From contig JWZX01002477.1 in the NCBI GenBank assembly GCA_001275005.1, forward strand, positions 1 through 34,171: a stretch of DNA of 34,171 bases, written 5' to 3'. Shown piece after piece: positions 1 to 29,488 of the stretch. The notes beneath the pieces are model-generated. The model made no database searches. It was not told where the DNA came from and worked only from the letters and a program-made list of their open reading frames with translations. Source of the stretch: Chrysochromulina tobinii (lineage: Eukaryota; Haptophyta; Prymnesiales; Chrysochromulinaceae). Position 1 is the stretch's first letter. Every line of letters begins with the position of its first letter. Made by a program: the position numbers and the translations under genes.

Positions 1-3000
1 GTTGCGCCGAGAAAGCGCTCGCTGCCCTCAGTGCAAGCGGCGCACGCGCCGGAGCCAGGATCGAGCTGGGTGTTCTCGTCGCACTCGTAGCAGACGTCGA
101 AAACGTCGTCGCGGCGTGAGGACGGAGCAGGGCAGCGGACGCATCCGTTGCCGTAGCGGCTGCGCGCGGTGCCAGGTTCGGAGCACCGGATGAAGGGCAG
201 CACCCGGCTGGGACCGCCATCGTTCCCAAGCAGCACGTCGAGGTCGCCGTCGCCGTCCACGTCCGCCGCCGCGATCGAGCGCGTGTACGCGCTGCCGCCG
301 GGCAGCTCGATGCTCGTCGGGAAGGTGACGTCGCCCGCGTTGAGCAGCACTACGCTGGAACTGCCAACGTTCCCAAGCAGCACGTCGAGGTCGCCGTCGC
401 CGTCCACGTCCGCCGCCGCGATTGAGAACGTGTTCGCGTTGCCGGGTAGGTCAAAGCTCATCGGGAAGGTGCCGTCGCCCGCGTTGAGCAGCACTCGGCT
501 GGGACTGACCGAATTCCCTAGCAGCACGTCGAGGTCACCGTCGCTGTCGACGTCCGCAGCCGCGATCGAACCCGTGTACGCGCTGCCGCCGGGCAGCTCG
601 ATGCTCGTCGGGAAGGTGCCGTCGCCCGCGTTGAGGAGCACTCGGCTGGGACTGCCATCGTTCCCAAGCAGCACGTCGAGGTCGCCGTCGCCGTCCACGT
701 CCGCCGCCGCGATCGAGCGCGTGTACGCGCTGCCGCCGGGCAGCTCGATGCTCGTCGGGAAGGTGCCGTCGCCCGCGTTGAGCAGCACTTCGCTGGCCAA
801 GGAAGTGCCATCGTTCCCAAGCAGCACGTCAAGGTCGCCGTCGCCGTCAACGTCGGCCGCTGCGATCGACCTAGTCAATTTGCCGCCGGGCAGCTCGATG
901 CTCGTCGGGAAGGTGCCGTCGCCCGCGTTGAGCAGCACTCGGCTAGCACGAGCAATGTTCCCAAGCAGCACGTCGAGGTCGCCGTCGCCGTCCACGTCCG
1001 CCGCCGCGATCGACCTCGTGTATGCGCTGCCGCCGGGCAGCTCGATGCTCGTCGGGAAGGTGCCGTCGCCCGCGTTGAGCAGCACTCGGCTGGCACTGTC
1101 ATAGTTCCCAAGCAGCACGTCGAGGTCACCGTCGACGTCGACGTCCGCTGCCGCGATCGAGTACGTTGACGCGTTGCCGCCGGGCAGCTCGATGCTCGTC
1201 GGGAAGGTGCCGTCGCCTGCGTTGAGCAGCACTCGGCTGGCACTGCCAACGTTCCCAAGCAGCACGTCGAGGTCGCCGTCGCAATCTACATCTGCCACCG
1301 CGATAGACCACGTCATACTGGTACCGGGCAGCTCGATGCTCGTCGGGAAGGTGCCGTCGCCAGCGTTGAACAGCACTCGGCTGGCACTGCGATCGTTCCC
1401 AAGCAGCACGTCGAGGTCACCGTCGCCATCAACGTCCGCCACCGCGATCGCGTACGTGTACGCGCTGCCGCTGGGCAGCTCGATGCTCGTCTTCAACGTG
1501 CCGTGCATGTCGATCGCATTGAGGAGCACTCGGCTAGCACTACCGTCGTTCCCGATCAGCACGTCGAGGTCGCCGTCGCCGTCCACGTCCCCCGCCGCGA
1601 TCGAGTACGTTGACGCGCTGCCGCCGGGCAGCTCGATGCTCGTCGGGAAGGTGCCGTCGCCCGCGTTGAGCAGCACTCGGCTGGCAATGCGATAGTTCCC
1701 TAGCAGCACGTCGAGGTCGCCGTCGCCGTCCACGTCCGCCACCGCGATCGAGTACGTTGACGCGCTGCCGCCGGGCAGCTCGATGCTCGTCGGGAAGGTG
1801 CCGTCGCCCGCGTTGAGCAGCACTCGGCTGGGACTGCCGTCATTCCCAAGCAGCACGTCGAGGTCGCCGTCACCGTCCACGTCCGCCGCCGCGATCGACC
1901 TCGTGGACACGCTGCCCCCGGGCAGCTCGATGCTCGTCGGGAAGGTGCCGCCGCCCGCGATGAGCAGCACGCGACTGGGACTGCCATAGTTCCCAAGCAG
2001 CACGTTGAGATCGCCGTCCCCGTCCACGTCTGCCGCCGCGATCGACAACGTGGACGCGCTGCCCCCGGGCAGCTCGATGCTCGTCGGGAAGACACCGTCG
2101 CCCGCGTTGAGCAGCACTCTCGAACTCCCATAGTTCCCAAGCAGCACGTCGAGGTCGCCATCGCCGTCCACGTCCGCCGCCGCGATTGAGCTCGTGGATG
2201 CGATGCCGCCCGGGAGCTCGATGCTCGTCGAGAAGGTGCCGTTGCCCGCGTTGAGCAGCACTCGGCTGGGACTGCCATAGTTCCCAAGTAGCACGTCGAG
2301 GTCGCCGTCCCCGTCCACGTCCGCCGCCGCGACCGACCTCGTGGACGCGCTGCCGCCGGGCAGCTCGATGCTCATCGGGAAGGTGCCGTCGCCCGCGTTG
2401 AGCAACACGACACTGGGACTGTTATTGTTCCCAAGCAGCACGTCGAGGTCGCCGTCCCCGTCCACGTCCGCCGCCGCGATCGACAACGTGGACGGGTTGC
2501 CCCCGGGCAGCTCGATGCTCACCGGGAAGGTGCCGTCGCCCGCGTTGAGCAGCACGCGGCTGGGACTGCCGTCGTTCCCAAGCAGCACGTCGAGGTCGCC
2601 GTCCCCGTCCACGTCCGCCGCCGCGATCGACAACGTGGACGCGTTGCCCCCTGGCAGCTCGATGCTCGTCGGGAAGGTGCCGTCGCCCGCATTGAGCAAC
2701 ACGCAGCTGGGACTGTTATTGTTCCCAAGCAGCACGTCAAGGTCGCCGTCCCCGTCCACGTCCGCCGCCGCGATCGAGAACGTGAACTGATTGCCGCCGG
2801 GCAACTCGATGCTCGTCTTGAAGGTGCCGTCGCCCGCGTTGAGGAGCACTCGGCTGGGACTGTCGCCCATCCCAAGCAGCACGTCGAGGTCGCCATCGCC
2901 GTCCACGTCCGCCGCCGCGATCGACCTCGTGGACTCGCTGCTGCCGGGCAGCAGCACCAGGCTTTGTCCCACAAACTTCAGCACTGCTTCGTCACTGCCC

Positions 3001-3290
3001 AGCAGCTCGTTCCCCATCCTCGCCAACGGCTTGGGGAAGCGCAGGCACCCCGGCTCGGAGGACAACGAGCATGCCGGCGGCAAGAGAGCAGCCCGAACTC
3101 CTGGTGCAGGCTTGGGACGGGCCGGCGTGGGCAGCATCACAACGCAGCCGACCCGCGCTCGTGCCGAGCAGTTGGGTGGTGCGAACACTGTCGGCTGACC
3201 GCCCGGCTGGAGTCCCTGCGCATAGTCCCGTGGGGGAGGGTAGCGCCTGCGGCCTTGGCGGTCGATGTGCCAGCCTGTGAGCATCGACAT
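1..3290 (-). CDS. FG-GAP/VCBS-repeat surface protein with Cys-rich C-terminal module (3' partial)
   Basis: The minus strand is open from an ATG at 3290 through the left edge, about 1,096 residues. From about 2930 down to 200 it carries 19 tandem repeats of about 49 residues, each with a DVDGDGDLD core followed by VLLGN and VLLNAGDGTF-like segments. The D-x-D-x-D-G-x-x-D core is the calcium-binding loop of FG-GAP/VCBS beta-propeller repeats, as in integrin alpha chains. Beyond the last repeat (about 1-200) the sequence turns Cys-rich (GNGCVRCP, VCYECDEN, GACAACTEG), resembling the ephrin-receptor-like Cys-rich modules of algal surface proteins. An extracellular adhesion or lectin-like role is inferred. 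The N-terminus has no clear signal peptide, so a 5' exon may be missing; an in-frame stop at 3444-3446 limits extension in this exon. The long plus-strand open frames here are mirror images of the repeats. Confidence 0.85.
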   Translation of the reverse strand, partial: MSMLTGWHIDRQGRRRYPPPRDYAQGLQPGGQPTVFAPPNCSARARVGCVVMLPTPARPKPAPGVRAALLPPACSLSSEPGCLRFPKPLARMGNELLGSDEAVLKFVGQSLVLLPGSSESTRSIAAADVDGDGDLDVLLGMGDSPSRVLLNAGDGTFKTSIELPGGNQFTFSIAAADVDGDGDLDVLLGNNNSPSCVLLNAGDGTFPTSIELPGGNASTLSIAAADVDGDGDLDVLLGNDGSPSRVLLNAGDGTFPVSIELPGGNPSTLSIAAADVDGDGDLDVLLGNNNSPSVVLLNAGDGTFPMSIELPGGSASTRSVAAADVDGDGDLDVLLGNYGSPSRVLLNAGNGTFSTSIELPGGIASTSSIAAADVDGDGDLDVLLGNYGSSRVLLNAGDGVFPTSIELPGGSASTLSIAAADVDGDGDLNVLLGNYGSPSRVLLIAGGGTFPTSIELPGGSVSTRSIAAADVDGDGDLDVLLGNDGSPSRVLLNAGDGTFPTSIELPGGSASTYSIAVADVDGDGDLDVLLGNYRIASRVLLNAGDGTFPTSIELPGGSASTYSIAAGDVDGDGDLDVLIGNDGSASRVLLNAIDMHGTLKTSIELPSGSAYTYAIAVADVDGDGDLDVLLGNDRSASRVLFNAGDGTFPTSIELPGTSMTWSIAVADVDCDGDLDVLLGNVGSASRVLLNAGDGTFPTSIELPGGNASTYSIAAADVDVDGDLDVLLGNYDSASRVLLNAGDGTFPTSIELPGGSAYTRSIAAADVDGDGDLDVLLGNIARASRVLLNAGDGTFPTSIELPGGKLTRSIAAADVDGDGDLDVLLGNDGTSLASEVLLNAGDGTFPTSIELPGGSAYTRSIAAADVDGDGDLDVLLGNDGSPSRVLLNAGDGTFPTSIELPGGSAYTGSIAAADVDSDGDLDVLLGNSVSPSRVLLNAGDGTFPMSFDLPGNANTFSIAAADVDGDGDLDVLLGNVGSSSVVLLNAGDVTFPTSIELPGGSAYTRSIAAADVDGDGDLDVLLGNDGGPSRVLPFIRCSEPGTARSRYGNGCVRCPAPSSRRDDVFDVCYECDENTQLDPGSGACAACTEGSERFLGA
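200..2930 (-). repeat. 19-copy tandem 147-bp repeat encoding FG-GAP units
   Basis: The plus-strand anchor AGCAGCACGTCGAGGTCGCC or a close variant recurs 19 times, from about 228 to about 2874. The mean spacing is 147 bp (49 codons). Indels that I checked are multiples of three, so the frame is kept throughout. The copies at about 2431 and 2727 share variants (a GNNNSP segment) that the copy between them lacks, which suggests duplication of a 294-bp two-unit block. Confidence 0.9.
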
Positions 3291-3984: not shown

Positions 3985-4470
3985 TAGACCGACCTCCGAG
4001 GTCAACCTCAAACTTTAGGGTTAGGGTTAGGGTTAGGGTTAAGGTTAGCGTGAGAGTCGACGTGTCACACTGGAGTGTCTGACACTGAAAGTGCGCGAAA
4101 AGTTTCGTCGAAGTTTCGTCACTGACAACACTAAGTTTCGTCATCTCTTTATTAGGCAATCAGTGGGTTTCGTCAGTCAGTCTACCGGTCGTAAACCTCC
4201 GTACGATATACCCCCCAGGAAAATGTTGCCGACCCCCTAGCTGACCTCCGAGGTCAAGCCCCAACTTCCGCCACACCCCCCCGAGCCAAGGTTTGAGAGT
4301 CGAAGGGTCACACTGGAGTGTCAGACACTGAAAGTGCGGGAAAAGGTTCGTCGAAGTTTCGTCACTGACCTCGCAGGGTTTCGTCATCTCTTTATTAGAC
4401 AACCAGGGGGTTTCGTCACTTCGATTCGTCACTAGGGCTACCGGTACGCAATCTCCGTAGGCGATATAGG
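3985..4470. repeat. Diverged direct repeat pair, about 245 bp per unit
   Basis: Unit A (about 3985-4212) and unit B (about 4236-4470) share ordered blocks. These are GACCTCCGAGGTCAA (3991 and 4243), GAGAGTCGA followed by GTCACACTGGAGTGTC (4052 and 4295), CGTCGAAGTTTCGTCACTGAC, TTTCGTCATCTCTTTATTAG, and a closing CTACCGGT followed by CCGTA and CGATATA. The offset is 243-252 bp. Unit A has a TTAGGG tract where unit B has unrelated sequence. Confidence 0.8.
4015..4044 (+). repeat. Interstitial telomere-like (TTAGGG)n tract
   Basis: Four perfect TTAGGG units are followed by one imperfect TTAAGG. TTAGGG is the commonest eukaryotic telomere unit. The array is short and flanked by ordinary sequence and genes on both sides, so it is internal, not a chromosome end. 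Confidence 0.8.
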
Positions 4471-25498: not shown

Positions 25499-27019
25499 AT
25501 GAACGAGTTCGAGGCGATGATGCGTGCGCGCCTCGAGGGCAGCGCGGCCGTAGCGCGACCTTCGTCTGTATCGCAGGCATCGCTCCCGCAGTCACGTCCA
25601 ATTGGAGGCTCCTCGCAGCAGCGTATGGCCGGCAGCTACTCCGCGCGCCCCGTGAGCTACCTGCAGTCCCAGGCGGCACCTCCTGCAGCAGCAGTGGCAG
25701 CGGCACGGCCGCCGCAGCAGCTGCAATCAGCAGCGGTCGAGTACGACGACGGCGCCGGCGTGCTAACGCCCAACTCGCGCAAGCAGGAGGAGGCCCGGCG
25801 GTTATCAGAAGGCCAGGGGCAGGCTGCTGCTGGTGGCACTGTGGCTGCGACTGGGGCAGGGCCGTCGCCACAATCCACGGGCTCGAGAGGTGCAGGCCCG
25901 TCCGATGGTTCGCTCCTCGCGCTTGGTGTCGCGACACGCGACGGACTGAACGAGGCGCAGATGCAGGCGGCGAGCCACGCGCCGTGTTCGGCTCTCATCA
26001 TCTTCGCGCCGGCGGGCGCCGGGAAGACGCTCACACTCGTGCACCGCGTCTTCTTCTTGTGCGGCAGCGGCGGCCTGGTGCCCTCGCAGGTGCTGTGCCT
26101 CACATTCACGCGCAAGGCGGCCGTTGAGATCCGCGGTCGGCTGCACCAGGCGGCGGGAATGGTCGATGTCGAGTGTGCGACCTTTCACGGATGGTGCCTG
26201 CGCCTGCTGCGCACCTTTGCCCACCTCACTGGCCGCCGGCCCGACTTTCGGCTCGCCTCGCACGCGCAGCAGCTTGGTCTGCTCAAGGAGGCGGTCTATG
26301 CGTGGCAGCGTCAGCAGGGCATCAGCCCACCCGACGATGCCGACGCCGAGGCTGAGGCGGCCGGTGGCGCAGGAGGCGGCGGCCGTGGTGCCGGCGCCGG
26401 TCCCGTCATCGGAAGAGGTGCGACGCCCAGGCACGCAACGCCCCACGGCAGCGTGCTCCCGAGCGGCCTCACGTGCCGCCGCGCGTCCGACGCGACCACG
26501 ATGCTGTGCCGCAAGCTCCAAAAGGCATTCCGCGACGTCAAGCTCCTCGGCCACCAGGTGGGTGAGCAGACGAACGCCCTCTTGATGTCGGAGATGGGCC
26601 AGTTCGTGCTGGTCCAGTACGACGAGCAGATGCGCCGCTGCGGCCTCGTCGACCTCGGCGACCTGCAGAGCATCGCCATCGAGCTCCTCGGCCACGCTCC
26701 CGTGCTCGAGAGCCTCCGGCGCAAGTACCGGCACGTGCTGGTCGACGAGTACCAGGACACGAACAAGCAGCAGCTCCAGATCATCAAGCTCCTGTGCGGC
26801 GTACAGCCGGCCCCGAAGCCGGAAGGGCGGCGGGATGATCCTCGGGGTGAATCTCGGGGTGAATCTCGGGGTGAATCTCGGGGTGAATCTCGGGCTCCGA
26901 AGCCGGATGGGCGGCGGGAGACCCTCGACGGCAGCCGGATGCGCCCGCCTGCGATGGCGCTTGCCGCCCACGGGCCGCTGGCCGTGCCGCCACCACCGGG
27001 ACCGCCGCCGCCCGAAGCC

Positions 27020-27055
<36 letters not shown>

Positions 27056-29488
27056 ACCGCCGCTCCGCCCTCGCAGCCGGCGATGGGCGTAACGGTTGTG
27101 GGGGATGATGACCAGTCGATATACTCGTTCCGAGGCGCCCAGCCCGGTGTCTTTGGCGTCTTCCAACGGCACGTCACCGGCGCGCGCGCGATCACGCTCT
27201 CACAGAACTATCGCTCGACGCGGAACATTGTGCAGGCGGCCACAGCCGTCATCAAGCACAACCCCGGGCGCGTCGACAAACAGGTCTTCACGGACGCGGC
27301 GCCAGGCCGCAAGGTCGAGCTGTGCGAATGCCGCAACGCGCACTTGGAGGCGGACTGGGTCGTCTCGCGCGTGCTCGCGCTGCAGCAGCAGGGGACGCCG
27401 CTTAGCTCGATCGCCGTCCTCTACCGGACGCACGCTGTGGGGCGCGAGATTTACAAGGCACTCAAGGACCATCACATCGCGCGCGCCGCCTCCTCGGCGG
27501 ACGTCTTCGCGCGCCCCGACATCGCGCCGCTGGTGAACGTGCTACGGCTCATCGCCAACCCGCACGACGACGCCGCCTTCCGCCTAGTCGCCACTGGCAC
27601 CGCCCCGGCATTCGACGGCGCGCTTCTCGACGTGCTGAGTACCGAGGCGCTCCGGACCAAGGCTTCGCTCTACCAGGCCGCTCGGCAGCTGCACGCGGCG
27701 TCCTCTGGCTTCTTTGGCGCGCCCACAACGGTGCCCACACCGGCCGCCGCGCCTTCGCCCCTCGTGGGCGCACCCTCGCCCTACCGCCCCCCGCCCTCGC
27801 CCTACAACCCCGCGCCCTCGCCCTTTGGCGCCCACGGCGGCGCCGGCGAGCCCGCCGCCACGCCTTATGGCGCCCACGGCAGCGCTCGAGCGGCCGCGGC
27901 GCTTGATGACGCCTCTCGTCGAGCACTCCACACTCTGCTGCACAAGCTCGACGAGCTGACGACGACCGCGCGTCGCGAGACGCCGAGCGCGCTGCTGCAG
28001 GCCATCATCCGCAGCGGCGTGCAGGTGGCTCTCAATCCGCAGGCACCTCCGCACGGCGCTAAGCTGCTGGCCGATGAGCTCGCCACGGCGCTACCCCACG
28101 CGCCCGCCCAGCCTGAGAGCCTCCACCTGCCGCCCGCCACGCCCGCCGGTGGTTACGCCGGTGGTTACGCCGGTGGTTACGCCGGCGGTTACGACAGCAG
28201 CGCCGCCGCTGCGCGCATGCCGCCGCCGCCGCGCCCCGCCGACAAGCTGACGGCGCTCCGCCATTTCCTGGAGCACCAGGCGCTGTCCGAGGTCGAGTTT
28301 GCAGGCGTGGATGGGCGCGACGCCAAGGCGGGCGTCTCCCTGAGCACCATCCACGGCGCCAAGGGCCGCGAGTGGCCCGTCGTGCTCGTCGTGCGTGTCA
28401 ACGAGGACATCTTGCCATTGTGCCTCGGCGCCGCCGACGAGGGGGGCGGCGCCTCGGCAGAATGCGTGGCCGAGGAGCGCCGTCTCCTGTACGTGGCGAT
28501 GACGCGCGCGCGCGAGCAGCTACTGCTCTCGTACGTAATGATGGGCGAGGACAAGGTGCCGAGCTGATTGCCCCTGATGAGCGCTGATTGCCTCCCCCAT
28601 CAGGTGCCGAGCTGATTGCCCCTGATGAGCGCTGATTGCCTCCCCCATCAGGTGCCGAGCTGATTGCCCCTGATGAGCGCTGATTGCCTCCCCCATCAGG
28701 TGCCGAGCAGCGCCTCCCGCTTCCTCAAGGGCATTCCCGCCGAGCTGCTTGAGCACACGTGCCACATGGAGCTGCTCAATAAGCCAACCGCCCGCCGCGA
28801 CACCAACGGCGCAAACTTTGCGCAGCCGCCGCCGCGCCCGCCGCCGGCGCATGCGGCGCACGGCCTCCCCCGAGCTGGGGGCGCGAGCGACGCCCGTCAC
28901 GACGCCCGTCTGGCCTCTCAAGCCGCAGCCGGCGGCGCCGCCGCGCTGGCCGCTGGCGCCACCGCGCTGGCTGCTGGCTTGGGCTCTCAGCCTGTGGGCT
29001 CTCAGCCTGCAATGAGGGAGGCCATCAGTGGCTCCCAAGCGGAGGGTGAGAGGCCGACGGGCGCCGTGACGGGCGCCGTGACGGGCGCCGTCGGAGCGCA
29101 CCTCGCACGTTGGCAGGAGGCGCACGCGCGCAAGGAGCACGAGCGGCGCGCGCGCAAGGAGAAGGAGCAGGCGCGCAAGGCGGAGAAAGAGGCCGCCAAC
29201 GAGGCCGCGGCAGGGGAGGGAGAGGCGAGCGGCTCGAGGGCTCCGAGGGCGCCCAAGGCGGCGCTCAAGGCGGCGCCCAAGGCACCAAGCAGCAAGGCGG
29301 CGGGCGCTGTGTCGGGCGCTGTGACGGGCGCTGTGTCGGGCGCTGTGTCGGGCGCTATCCCAAGCAGCAAGGCGGCTGGCAAGGCGCGGGTGCCGCCAGC
29401 TGGGGATCCGCCGCCGGCAAAGAAGGCCAAATCGAAGCGGATCGTCGTGGACGACGAGGACAGCGAGGACAACGACCTCTTCGACTGA
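25499..29488 (+). CDS. UvrD/Rep/Srs2-type superfamily 1 DNA helicase, two exons
   Basis: Exon 1 is 25499-28555 and exon 2 is 28700-29488, giving 1,281 residues. The start is the ATG at 25499; the frame extends only to a TTG at 25391. SF1A motifs in order: Q-like GLNEAQMQAA, Walker A APAGAGKT (170-177), LCLTFTRKAA (Ia), TFHGWC, Walker B VDEYQD (Asp416), GDDDQSIYSFRG (III, about 535-546), SQNYRST (IV), STIHGAKGREW (V) and LLYVAMTRARE (VI, about 994-1006). Exon 2 opens with the UvrD-typical SRFLKGIPAELLE and continues as a long basic tail ending in an acidic DDEDSEDNDLFD. These enzymes translocate 3'-5' on single-stranded DNA in repair and recombination control. Low-complexity inserts (Gly-rich near 285, ESRG repeats and poly-Pro between motifs II and III, GGYA repeats near 885) lie in loops. 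Without splicing, translation stops at 28567, just after motif VI. Confidence 0.93.
26839..26890 (+). repeat. 12-bp tandem repeat encoding ESRG units
   Basis: The unit GGTGAATCTCGG recurs four times after a CCTCGG lead-in and encodes Glu-Ser-Arg-Gly repeats in the helicase insert between motifs II and III. A (CCG)n poly-Pro run follows at about 27017-27055. Confidence 0.85.
28141..28190 (+). repeat. 12-bp tandem repeat encoding GGYA units
   Basis: Four near-identical GGTGGTTACGCC units encode GGYAGGYAGGYAGGY in a linker of the helicase 2B-like region. Confidence 0.85.
28556..28699 (+). repeat. Triplicated 48-nt mini-intron in the helicase gene
   Basis: Three identical tandem 48-nt units (28556-28603, 28604-28651, 28652-28699) each begin GTGCCGAGC and end CCCATCAG, so each is itself a GT...AG segment. 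Exon 2 begins with the same GTGCCGAGC. Every unit carries an in-frame TGA as its fourth codon. Removing all 144 nt (phase 0) joins GEDK to VPSSASRFLKGIP, the expected continuation of a UvrD helicase. Each internal boundary reads CAG|GTG, an acceptor directly abutting a donor. Inside each unit GCTGATTGCC occurs twice. Confidence 0.88.

Follow-up and report, generated by a model that had tools for sequence, protein, structure and literature searches.

Introners of the kind described in Micromonas, Aureococcus and others are many similar introns at unrelated positions, and previously characterised families with the signatures of DNA transposons duplicate 3–9 bp of their target (Gozashti et al., 2022; PMC9860276). 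Low-complexity families were removed in that survey, whose Chrysochromulina sp. example comes from a metagenome-assembled genome, shows duplications of 4 bp and brings its own 5′ splice site. The introner elements of Amoebophrya (PMC7789003) are likewise repeated introns with direct repeats at their borders, with 3–5 nt direct and 8–20 nt inverted repeats. Introns can also be gained by local duplication. In AGGT tandem genomic duplication and in double-strand-break repair (PMC3443670), duplicated exon sequence gives the new GT in an AG|GT target context, and in the RNA-dependent RNA polymerase (RdRp) gene of potato (PMC4974935) the duplication of the 3′ part of an intron together with the start of the next exon made an intron whose donor was formerly exonic. 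Finally, stwintrons (PMC7138796) have abutting splice elements that permit removal in one step or stepwise. Here we compare with these systems an array of three 48-nt units in a UvrD/PcrA-like helicase gene of the haptophyte Chrysochromulina tobinii. The gene lies in a stretch of 34,171 nt (contig JWZX01002477.1, forward strand), referred to below as the window. The literature searched had no study of C. tobinii introners, and neither "tobin" nor "CCMP291" occurs in the main text of PMC9860276.

A preliminary description, made from the letters of the window, had placed at 28556–28699 three identical GT...AG units with abutting splice sites. The three copies (28556–28603, 28604–28651 and 28652–28699) are indeed 100% identical, and Tandem Repeats Finder (TRF) reports 3.2 copies with 100% matches and a score of 310. 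Each unit begins with GTGCCGAGC, ends in CATCAG and contains an in-frame TGA (KVPS*...HQVPS*...), and exon 2 shares the unit start, with GTGCCGAGC at 28700–28708, as had been stated. The proposal that removal of all three units restores the C-terminus of UvrD also held: once the 144 nt are cut out the frame reads ...GEDK|VPSSASRFLKGIP, collinear with GADKVPLSASRFLKALP (P0002; 51% identity, 98% of the query) and GADRVPCPASRFLLALP (P0003), and further relatives are uninterrupted at the site (GDQNVPVPSSRFLKALP, P0004; GPDNVPASASRFLRNLP, P0005; GADKVPIAKSRFLSPLP, P0014). Judged from these proteins, the Val-Pro at the junction is old exon sequence, and the length of the protein at this site is unchanged by the predicted gain of an intron.

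Our reading, to which we assign a probability of about 0.72, is that the array is a spliceosomal intron that arose from an introner-like insertion with target duplication, was then tandemly duplicated and later served as donor to a second gene, a dynein heavy chain-like gene at C987 (C and L numbers are our handles for places in the assembly and P numbers those for related proteins). From an existing introner, a 39-nt piece whose end is exactly the 3′ splice site would have entered an uninterrupted helicase exon. The 9-nt target GTGCCGAGC would have been duplicated, its left copy becoming the 5′ splice site, and the insert would have supplied the branch site, the C/T tract and the AG. Tandem duplication of the compound unit, target copy plus insert, to three copies would have produced the abutting AG|GT junctions, and a junction-spanning stretch of the array would afterwards have been copied into the C987 gene with a new 23-nt target duplication. 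The preliminary description had offered a target-site duplication or the scar of a tandem duplication for the shared exon start; both appear to be true in succession, the 9-nt repeat marking the target and its threefold repetition the later tandem duplication. Its suggestion of a recent expansion agrees with the youth suggested by the identical units. The AGGT-duplication mode that it also named stands as regards the exon-derived GT in an AG|GT context and falls as a sole explanation: the new intron does not consist solely of duplicated exon sequence, because its 39-nt core is a dispersed repeat, unlike the exon sequence or the unique filler of the modes in PMC3443670. The potato arrangement is closer, as each helicase unit consists of the 39-nt core plus GTGCCGAGC and exon 2 opens with GTGCCGAGC. 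A border duplication of this type is the step that would add units to the array; in potato it was a single event, whereas the helicase has reiterated perfect copies starting from an inserted introner. In contrast to stwintrons, which are nested in splice elements, the helicase units lie side by side at AG|GT.

Table 1. Features of the helicase gene and its array (positions in the window)
Feature	Position	Strand	Remarks
UvrD/PcrA-like helicase, exon 1	25499..28555	+	Long frame with its first ATG at 25499; closes with ...GGCGAGGACAAG; PF00580, PF13361, PF13538
Array of three identical 48-nt units, predicted to be a 144-nt intron	28556..28699	+	Repeat, frame, relatives
Unit 1, GTGCCGAGC, copy of exon 2 start; predicted 5′ splice site AAG|GTGCCG	28556..28564	+	Homologues there: VP
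Unit 1, 39-nt introner core	28565..28603	+	Last 20 nt (28584–28603) are the family module of branch site, C/T tract and CATCAG
Unit 2, GTGCCGAGC plus 39-nt core	28604..28651	+	Abutting AG|GT at 28603/28604
Unit 3, GTGCCGAGC plus 39-nt core	28652..28699	+	Abutting AG|GT at 28651/28652
GTGCCGAGC as coding Val-Pro-Ser, exon 2 start; presumed original target copy	28700..28708	+	
Helicase exon 2, up to the stop codon	28700..29488	+	
Stretch matched in the C987 dynein heavy chain-like gene, including the GTGCCGAGC junction	28583..28651	+	Also one unit downstream

The published C. tobinii assembly, made from 454 and Illumina reads, has 59 Mb at 63.4% GC, with 16,777 genes and an average of one intron in each (Hovde et al., 2015; PMC4580454), in a study that also produced transcriptome data; we searched an assembly of 53.15 Mb in 2253 contigs. 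Inside the window the 3′ motif is confined to the helicase array (three matches at up to three mismatches, against an average of 0.05 in shuffled sequences). Across the assembly, the 3′ module TGATTGCCYCYYTCATCAG, made up of branch site, C/T tract and CATCAG, has 4120 matches at up to two mismatches, each array unit being counted singly, with 2003 on one strand and 2117 on the other; the reversed pattern has 1. The preliminary description had advised a genome search for the 39-nt core between differing flanking duplications at other intron positions, and this was positive: at up to three mismatches it recurs at C987 (one copy, 2 mismatches) and at C1959 (four copies, 3 mismatches, 54 nt apart). 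In a consensus of 76 introner copies only the last 20 nt are strongly conserved, and the sequence upstream is variable with a loose CTGATG-like rhythm. The helicase array thus looks like one of many introner-like insertions, as 4120 matches and the restoration of codon phase in 33 of 37 cases, described below, make this a family of many similar introns at unrelated positions of one genome. Two candidates for the nature of the element were tried and rejected. A hammerhead ribozyme, prompted by the sequence CTGATGA, was not found, the window being without an Rfam match at gathering thresholds in a scan limited to it; as for a viral carrier, a 19-nt module has 0 exact matches in viral contigs, and window positions 28400–28860 are unmatched in phage records.

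Target duplications were scored at loci fetched through motif or array searches (L113–L133 were picked for tags). The start of the downstream exon is repeated at the start of the intron, with a score of at least 12, in 36 of 80 isolated copies, against 0 of 596 swapped exons and 9 of 600 AG positions of the window. This test superseded a first one, whose control was taken inside introner-rich loci and was 19% positive at score 12. Where detected, the duplications are 12–57 nt long (median 21 among the 36), and in a clean set of 97 copies their median is 23 nt (10–90% range 16–35), with a median insert of 59 nt. Together with the dispersal of the 3′ module, these locus-specific duplications bear out the introner-type origin that the preliminary description had suggested. 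In an unanchored search, 60 of 81 scored cases had their best duplication starting immediately behind the AG, and in 15 of the other 21 the start was 1–5 nt off, a shift that a single mismatch close to the border can produce; among swapped pairs, 3 of 297 reached the score. Exon 2 opens with GT in 53 of the 80 isolated copies, and exact starts are seen both with GT-starting exons (42/55) and with non-GT exons (18/26), so the right end of the insert seems to be set by the process itself and not solely by selection for GT..AG introns. In the same 60 of 81 cases the similarity between introners extends exactly to the 3′ splice site, the 5′ part being derived from the target and the body variable. 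On this comparison of copies, the C. tobinii family would work in the manner of introners (PMC9860276) whose 5′ splice site is taken from the duplicated target.

Among the duplications that do not begin with GT (L045, L035, L050, L021, L044, L087), strong-looking donors such as GTGCG, GTACG or GTGAG often lie inside the left copy. Such inner donors stand at a position divisible by 3 in 7 of 10 duplications, a count that omits L056, whose left copy does begin with GT, against 12 of 30 for all GTR sites; introns using them may have lengthened the protein by a few codons.

The family resembles the introners of PMC9860276 in its many similar introns and departs from them in other respects. Their earlier families duplicate 3–9 bp, against a variable 12–57 nt where detected in C. 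tobinii; terminal inverted repeats are not in excess, the body is variable and of low complexity, and what the copies have in common is limited to some 20 nt at the 3′ end. Donor-tagged concatemers, described below, set it further apart, and unlike the published Chrysochromulina sp. example it would not bring its own 5′ splice site. The ends of the inserts also lack the inverted repeats of the Amoebophrya elements in any excess: the mean best match is 4.09 of 8 nt against 4.10 in the swapped control (n = 97), with an inverted match of at least 7 of 8 nt in 6 of the 97 copies.

If these elements are introns, their removal should reunite the reading frames of their hosts. We trained a codon model on six open frames of the window, which gave the right phase in 42 of 42 stretches of held-out open frame, and applied it to copies with a duplication score of at least 10, a GT start, a length of up to 260 nt and usable flanks. 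Removal from GT to AG puts both flanks in one codon phase in 33 of 37 testable cases; in the 25 whose length is not divisible by 3, agreement is found in 22 when spliced and in 3 when unspliced. Among 148 downstream flanks, 94 are coding-like in the sense direction, 14 in antisense and 40 unclear, and none of the 148 is a clear antisense insertion within a gene, the best antisense score being +5.0. Moreover, the L-asparaginase gene with an introner at C19 has a spliced frame, SAIESM|VRYSSKLRGLVLSLYGTGNGPSRK, that matches the uninterrupted proteins P0242–P0245, P0247 and P0248. P0246, an open frame identical over the part aligned, enters the introner and stops. Sites uninterrupted in relatives, with the protein left intact, are therefore found at the protein level in two genes, helicase and asparaginase. 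P0246 is itself a public protein cluster with 70 members, and over the aligned 72% it does not differ from the asparaginase of C. tobinii; it comes from C. tobinii itself or from a near-identical source and is possibly of use for comparing copy numbers.

The preliminary description treated the helicase array as a local event, which it is not. Exact AG|GT..AG|GT neighbours number 36 at a spacing of 29–58 nt and 117 at 59–88 nt, where a few matches cover two short units; reversed controls gave 0. Among the matches listed, we counted by hand 18 loci with arrays of near-identical units, including the helicase (48 × 3), C1959 (54 nt), C1217, C1300 and C492; the count takes neighbouring matches, uses 100 of the 117 places at 59–88 nt and omits the dissimilar-unit neighbours C1189, C1552:58.5k and C1645. 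An array at C858 (42 × 5) is additional to these 18. The bare 21-nt 3′ module CTGATTGCCTCCCTCATCAGG forms arrays too, with nine copies at L048 (C1041), seven at L043 (C1604), flanked by a 23-nt target duplication, and five at L042 (C127). Such arrays are a habit of the C. tobinii genome, and the helicase has a clean example.

How the array would be spliced can be judged from its single-copy relatives. The 36 isolated introners with a clear duplication are 51–228 nt long and one alone is below 61 nt; a single 48-nt unit would fall below this whole range, which favours taking out 144 nt (or 96 nt) at once, and the helicase array is probably spliced as a single 144-nt intron. Stepwise removal through zero-length exons is possible, and it would yield the same mRNA because partial removal regenerates the AAG|GTGCCG donor. 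A retained unit would end the helicase protein just past VPS. Units shorter than 60 nt occur in 5 of the 18 near-identical-unit arrays and in 1 of the 36 isolated introns (p = 0.013), which is suggestive only of a role of array expansion in rescuing sub-minimal introns.

A copy that crosses an internal junction of an array carries a piece of the donor's exon, here called a tag. The insert at C987 amounts to 1.4 helicase units, with 66 of 69 positions matching 28583–28651, GTGCCGAGC included (68 bases at 97% in the alignment), and it sits between its own 23-nt duplication, GTGCAGGACGCCGACGGATTCCT, unlike that of the helicase. The frame of its host is open for 823 codons once two introners are removed and matches the dynein heavy chain domain PF08393 (E 4.2e-9) downstream of both junctions. 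In a search at up to three mismatches, the junction CATCAG|GTGCCGAGCTG occurs without mismatch only in the helicase, at its two internal junctions, and at C987; one further place has it at 3 mismatches. The order helicase array, then C987, is the simplest because GTGCCGAGC is exon sequence in the helicase, and on this comparison the helicase array probably became the donor of the insert in the dynein gene. A second tag, from the C858 array, has 17 matches at up to one mismatch, and only at C858:1549 does the sequence continue into the exon (GTGCTCCTCACCCTGACGG). The introner with this tag at C176 consists of exactly one 42-nt GT..AG unit and is flanked by an 18-nt duplication, at C373 a single copy of the tagged introner lies within a duplication of about 25 nt, and at C644 a foreign tag is flanked by a 22-nt duplication. 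Three introners, L120 (C2244), L129 (C1011) and L130 (C1733), have the C858 tag or a form with one mismatch, and their own exons start with GTGCTCC, the first 7–8 nt of the tag, which suggests insertion at microhomology. Another tag, GTGGACCACATCC, has 14 matches at up to one mismatch (2 in the reversed control); at the three possible sources inspected (C761:3.6k, C1622 and C1503) there is exon-like sequence and no introner.

Microhomology of this kind also supports the reverse reading, in which the helicase received its unit from C987 or from a lost donor through a chance 9-nt match. We consider this unlikely, as the junction without mismatches is found in the helicase and C987 only, and the helicase has the tag as its own exon sequence, at a position that reads VP in relatives. 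An assembly artefact, with a true array of some other number of units, is improbable: identical 48-nt repeats are difficult for short reads and the copy number of three is that assembled from 454 and Illumina data, yet arrays at other loci show small differences from unit to unit and a junction-spanning copy is present at C987. Very improbable, in our view, is a plain minisatellite, that is, an ordinary old intron whose 48-nt content was expanded by slippage and whose splice sites fell at the unit borders by coincidence. The perfect tandem copies and the other short in-frame repeats in the helicase gene would suit it, but the unit starts as the downstream exon does, the core is dispersed with differing flanking duplications and the closest relatives are uninterrupted at the site.

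There remains the route by which introners are copied, for which a DNA transposon, RNA and repair are the candidates. We take the likely mode to be a template switch guided by microhomology, in which the 3′ part of an intron is copied, synthesis returns to the target at (C)AG and some 9–57 nt are re-copied. The resulting intron would have its own branch site and AG and would borrow its GT from the re-copied exon, and slippage between copies would build abutting AG|GT concatemers. At the right junction, 11 of 23 non-GT cases and 14 of 45 GT cases have an AG directly ahead of the duplication, against a background of 5.2%; this count drops the 29 of 97 copies whose preceding six bases resemble an introner end, and another intron may lie just before some of its non-GT cases. 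On the left side, the tail of the duplication and the sequence before the candidate donor share 1.29 nt against 0.42 when shuffled (n = 39; 0/2000), in a set that leaves out same-locus donors and matches of at least 5 nt (an earlier, looser set gave 1.76 against 0.43, n = 50). Template switching with a backward step agrees with the variable duplications and with microhomology at the two ends, and from this microhomology we infer that it is favoured over a transposase. A non-autonomous DNA transposon of the Micromonas/Aureococcus type, moved by a transposase with target duplication, would account for the many copies and their duplications; it is quite improbable given the 12–57 nt spread in the length of those detected, outside 3–9 bp (the helicase has 9), and the lack of any excess of terminal inverted repeats among the 97 copies. 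The main rival is reverse transcription of excised intron RNA at a nicked target (target-primed reverse transcription), which would leave copies truncated at the 5′ end and anchored at the 3′ end, with variable duplications. It would suit the mostly exact 3′ ends (60/81) beside variable 5′ ends and duplications, the terminal inverted repeats not in excess, the presence of reverse transcriptases (26 RVT_1 matches, 22 above the cut-off) and the C176 insert, exactly one 42-nt GT..AG unit of C858. We regard it as rather unlikely all the same, since it does not specifically predict the left-junction microhomology or the preference for AG before the duplication, and the branch site shows no enrichment of insert starts (26 of 97 at −3..0, with about 0.3 estimated if uniform), which also led us to reject the idea that reverse transcription halts at the branch point of a lariat. 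RNA copies should never pass the donor's AG or start outside its transcript, and copies made by DNA template switching may. We offer tentatively, at rather less than even odds, that C. tobinii makes introns without a transposase, through template switching by a repair or replication polymerase, slippage into AG|GT concatemers and the use of these concatemers as exon-tagged donors.

Several observations weigh against our reading of the array and its family. The search pattern itself imposed 19 of the 20 conserved 3′ nucleotides, and because loci were chosen by motif, array or tag, their frequencies are not genome-wide rates. No duplication scoring at least 12 was found at 44 of the 80 isolated ends; these copies may be old, may have short duplications as in the helicase or may have another origin. 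The 9-nt duplication of the helicase itself falls under the detection limit of the scans. Of 85 duplications, 28 do not begin with GT, and any splicing of these is in doubt for that reason. The splicing of introners and array alike is inferred from the reading frame, and the phases disagree in 4 of the 37 cases; adding exon 2 of the helicase brings no rise in Pfam scores, which are uninformative here because the reported domain stretches stop before the junction. Regarding direction, the reversed control of the C858 tag pattern also yields 3 matches, and entry at microhomology, which seems to occur in this genome, would allow the opposite course, with C987-like DNA entering the helicase at a chance GTGCCGAGC.

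The C. tobinii genome is useful for this question, as its long, readable target duplications and donor-exon tags show the direction and extent of single copying events. The helicase array illustrates how a young intron may turn into a concatemer with abutting splice sites, and, if our reading is true, junction-crossing copies carry a tag of the donor exon, so that the pedigree of intron spread could be read gene by gene.

Other repeats were observed in the window. The helicase coding sequence has in-frame short 12-nt repeats at 26841–26894 and 28144–28193, as well as runs of proline and alanine. An interstitial TTAGGG repeat of 5.7 copies lies at 4015–4048, and a 147-nt tandem array of 18.7 copies (84% matches) at 197–2952 lies inside a long open frame of the minus strand (3–3290).

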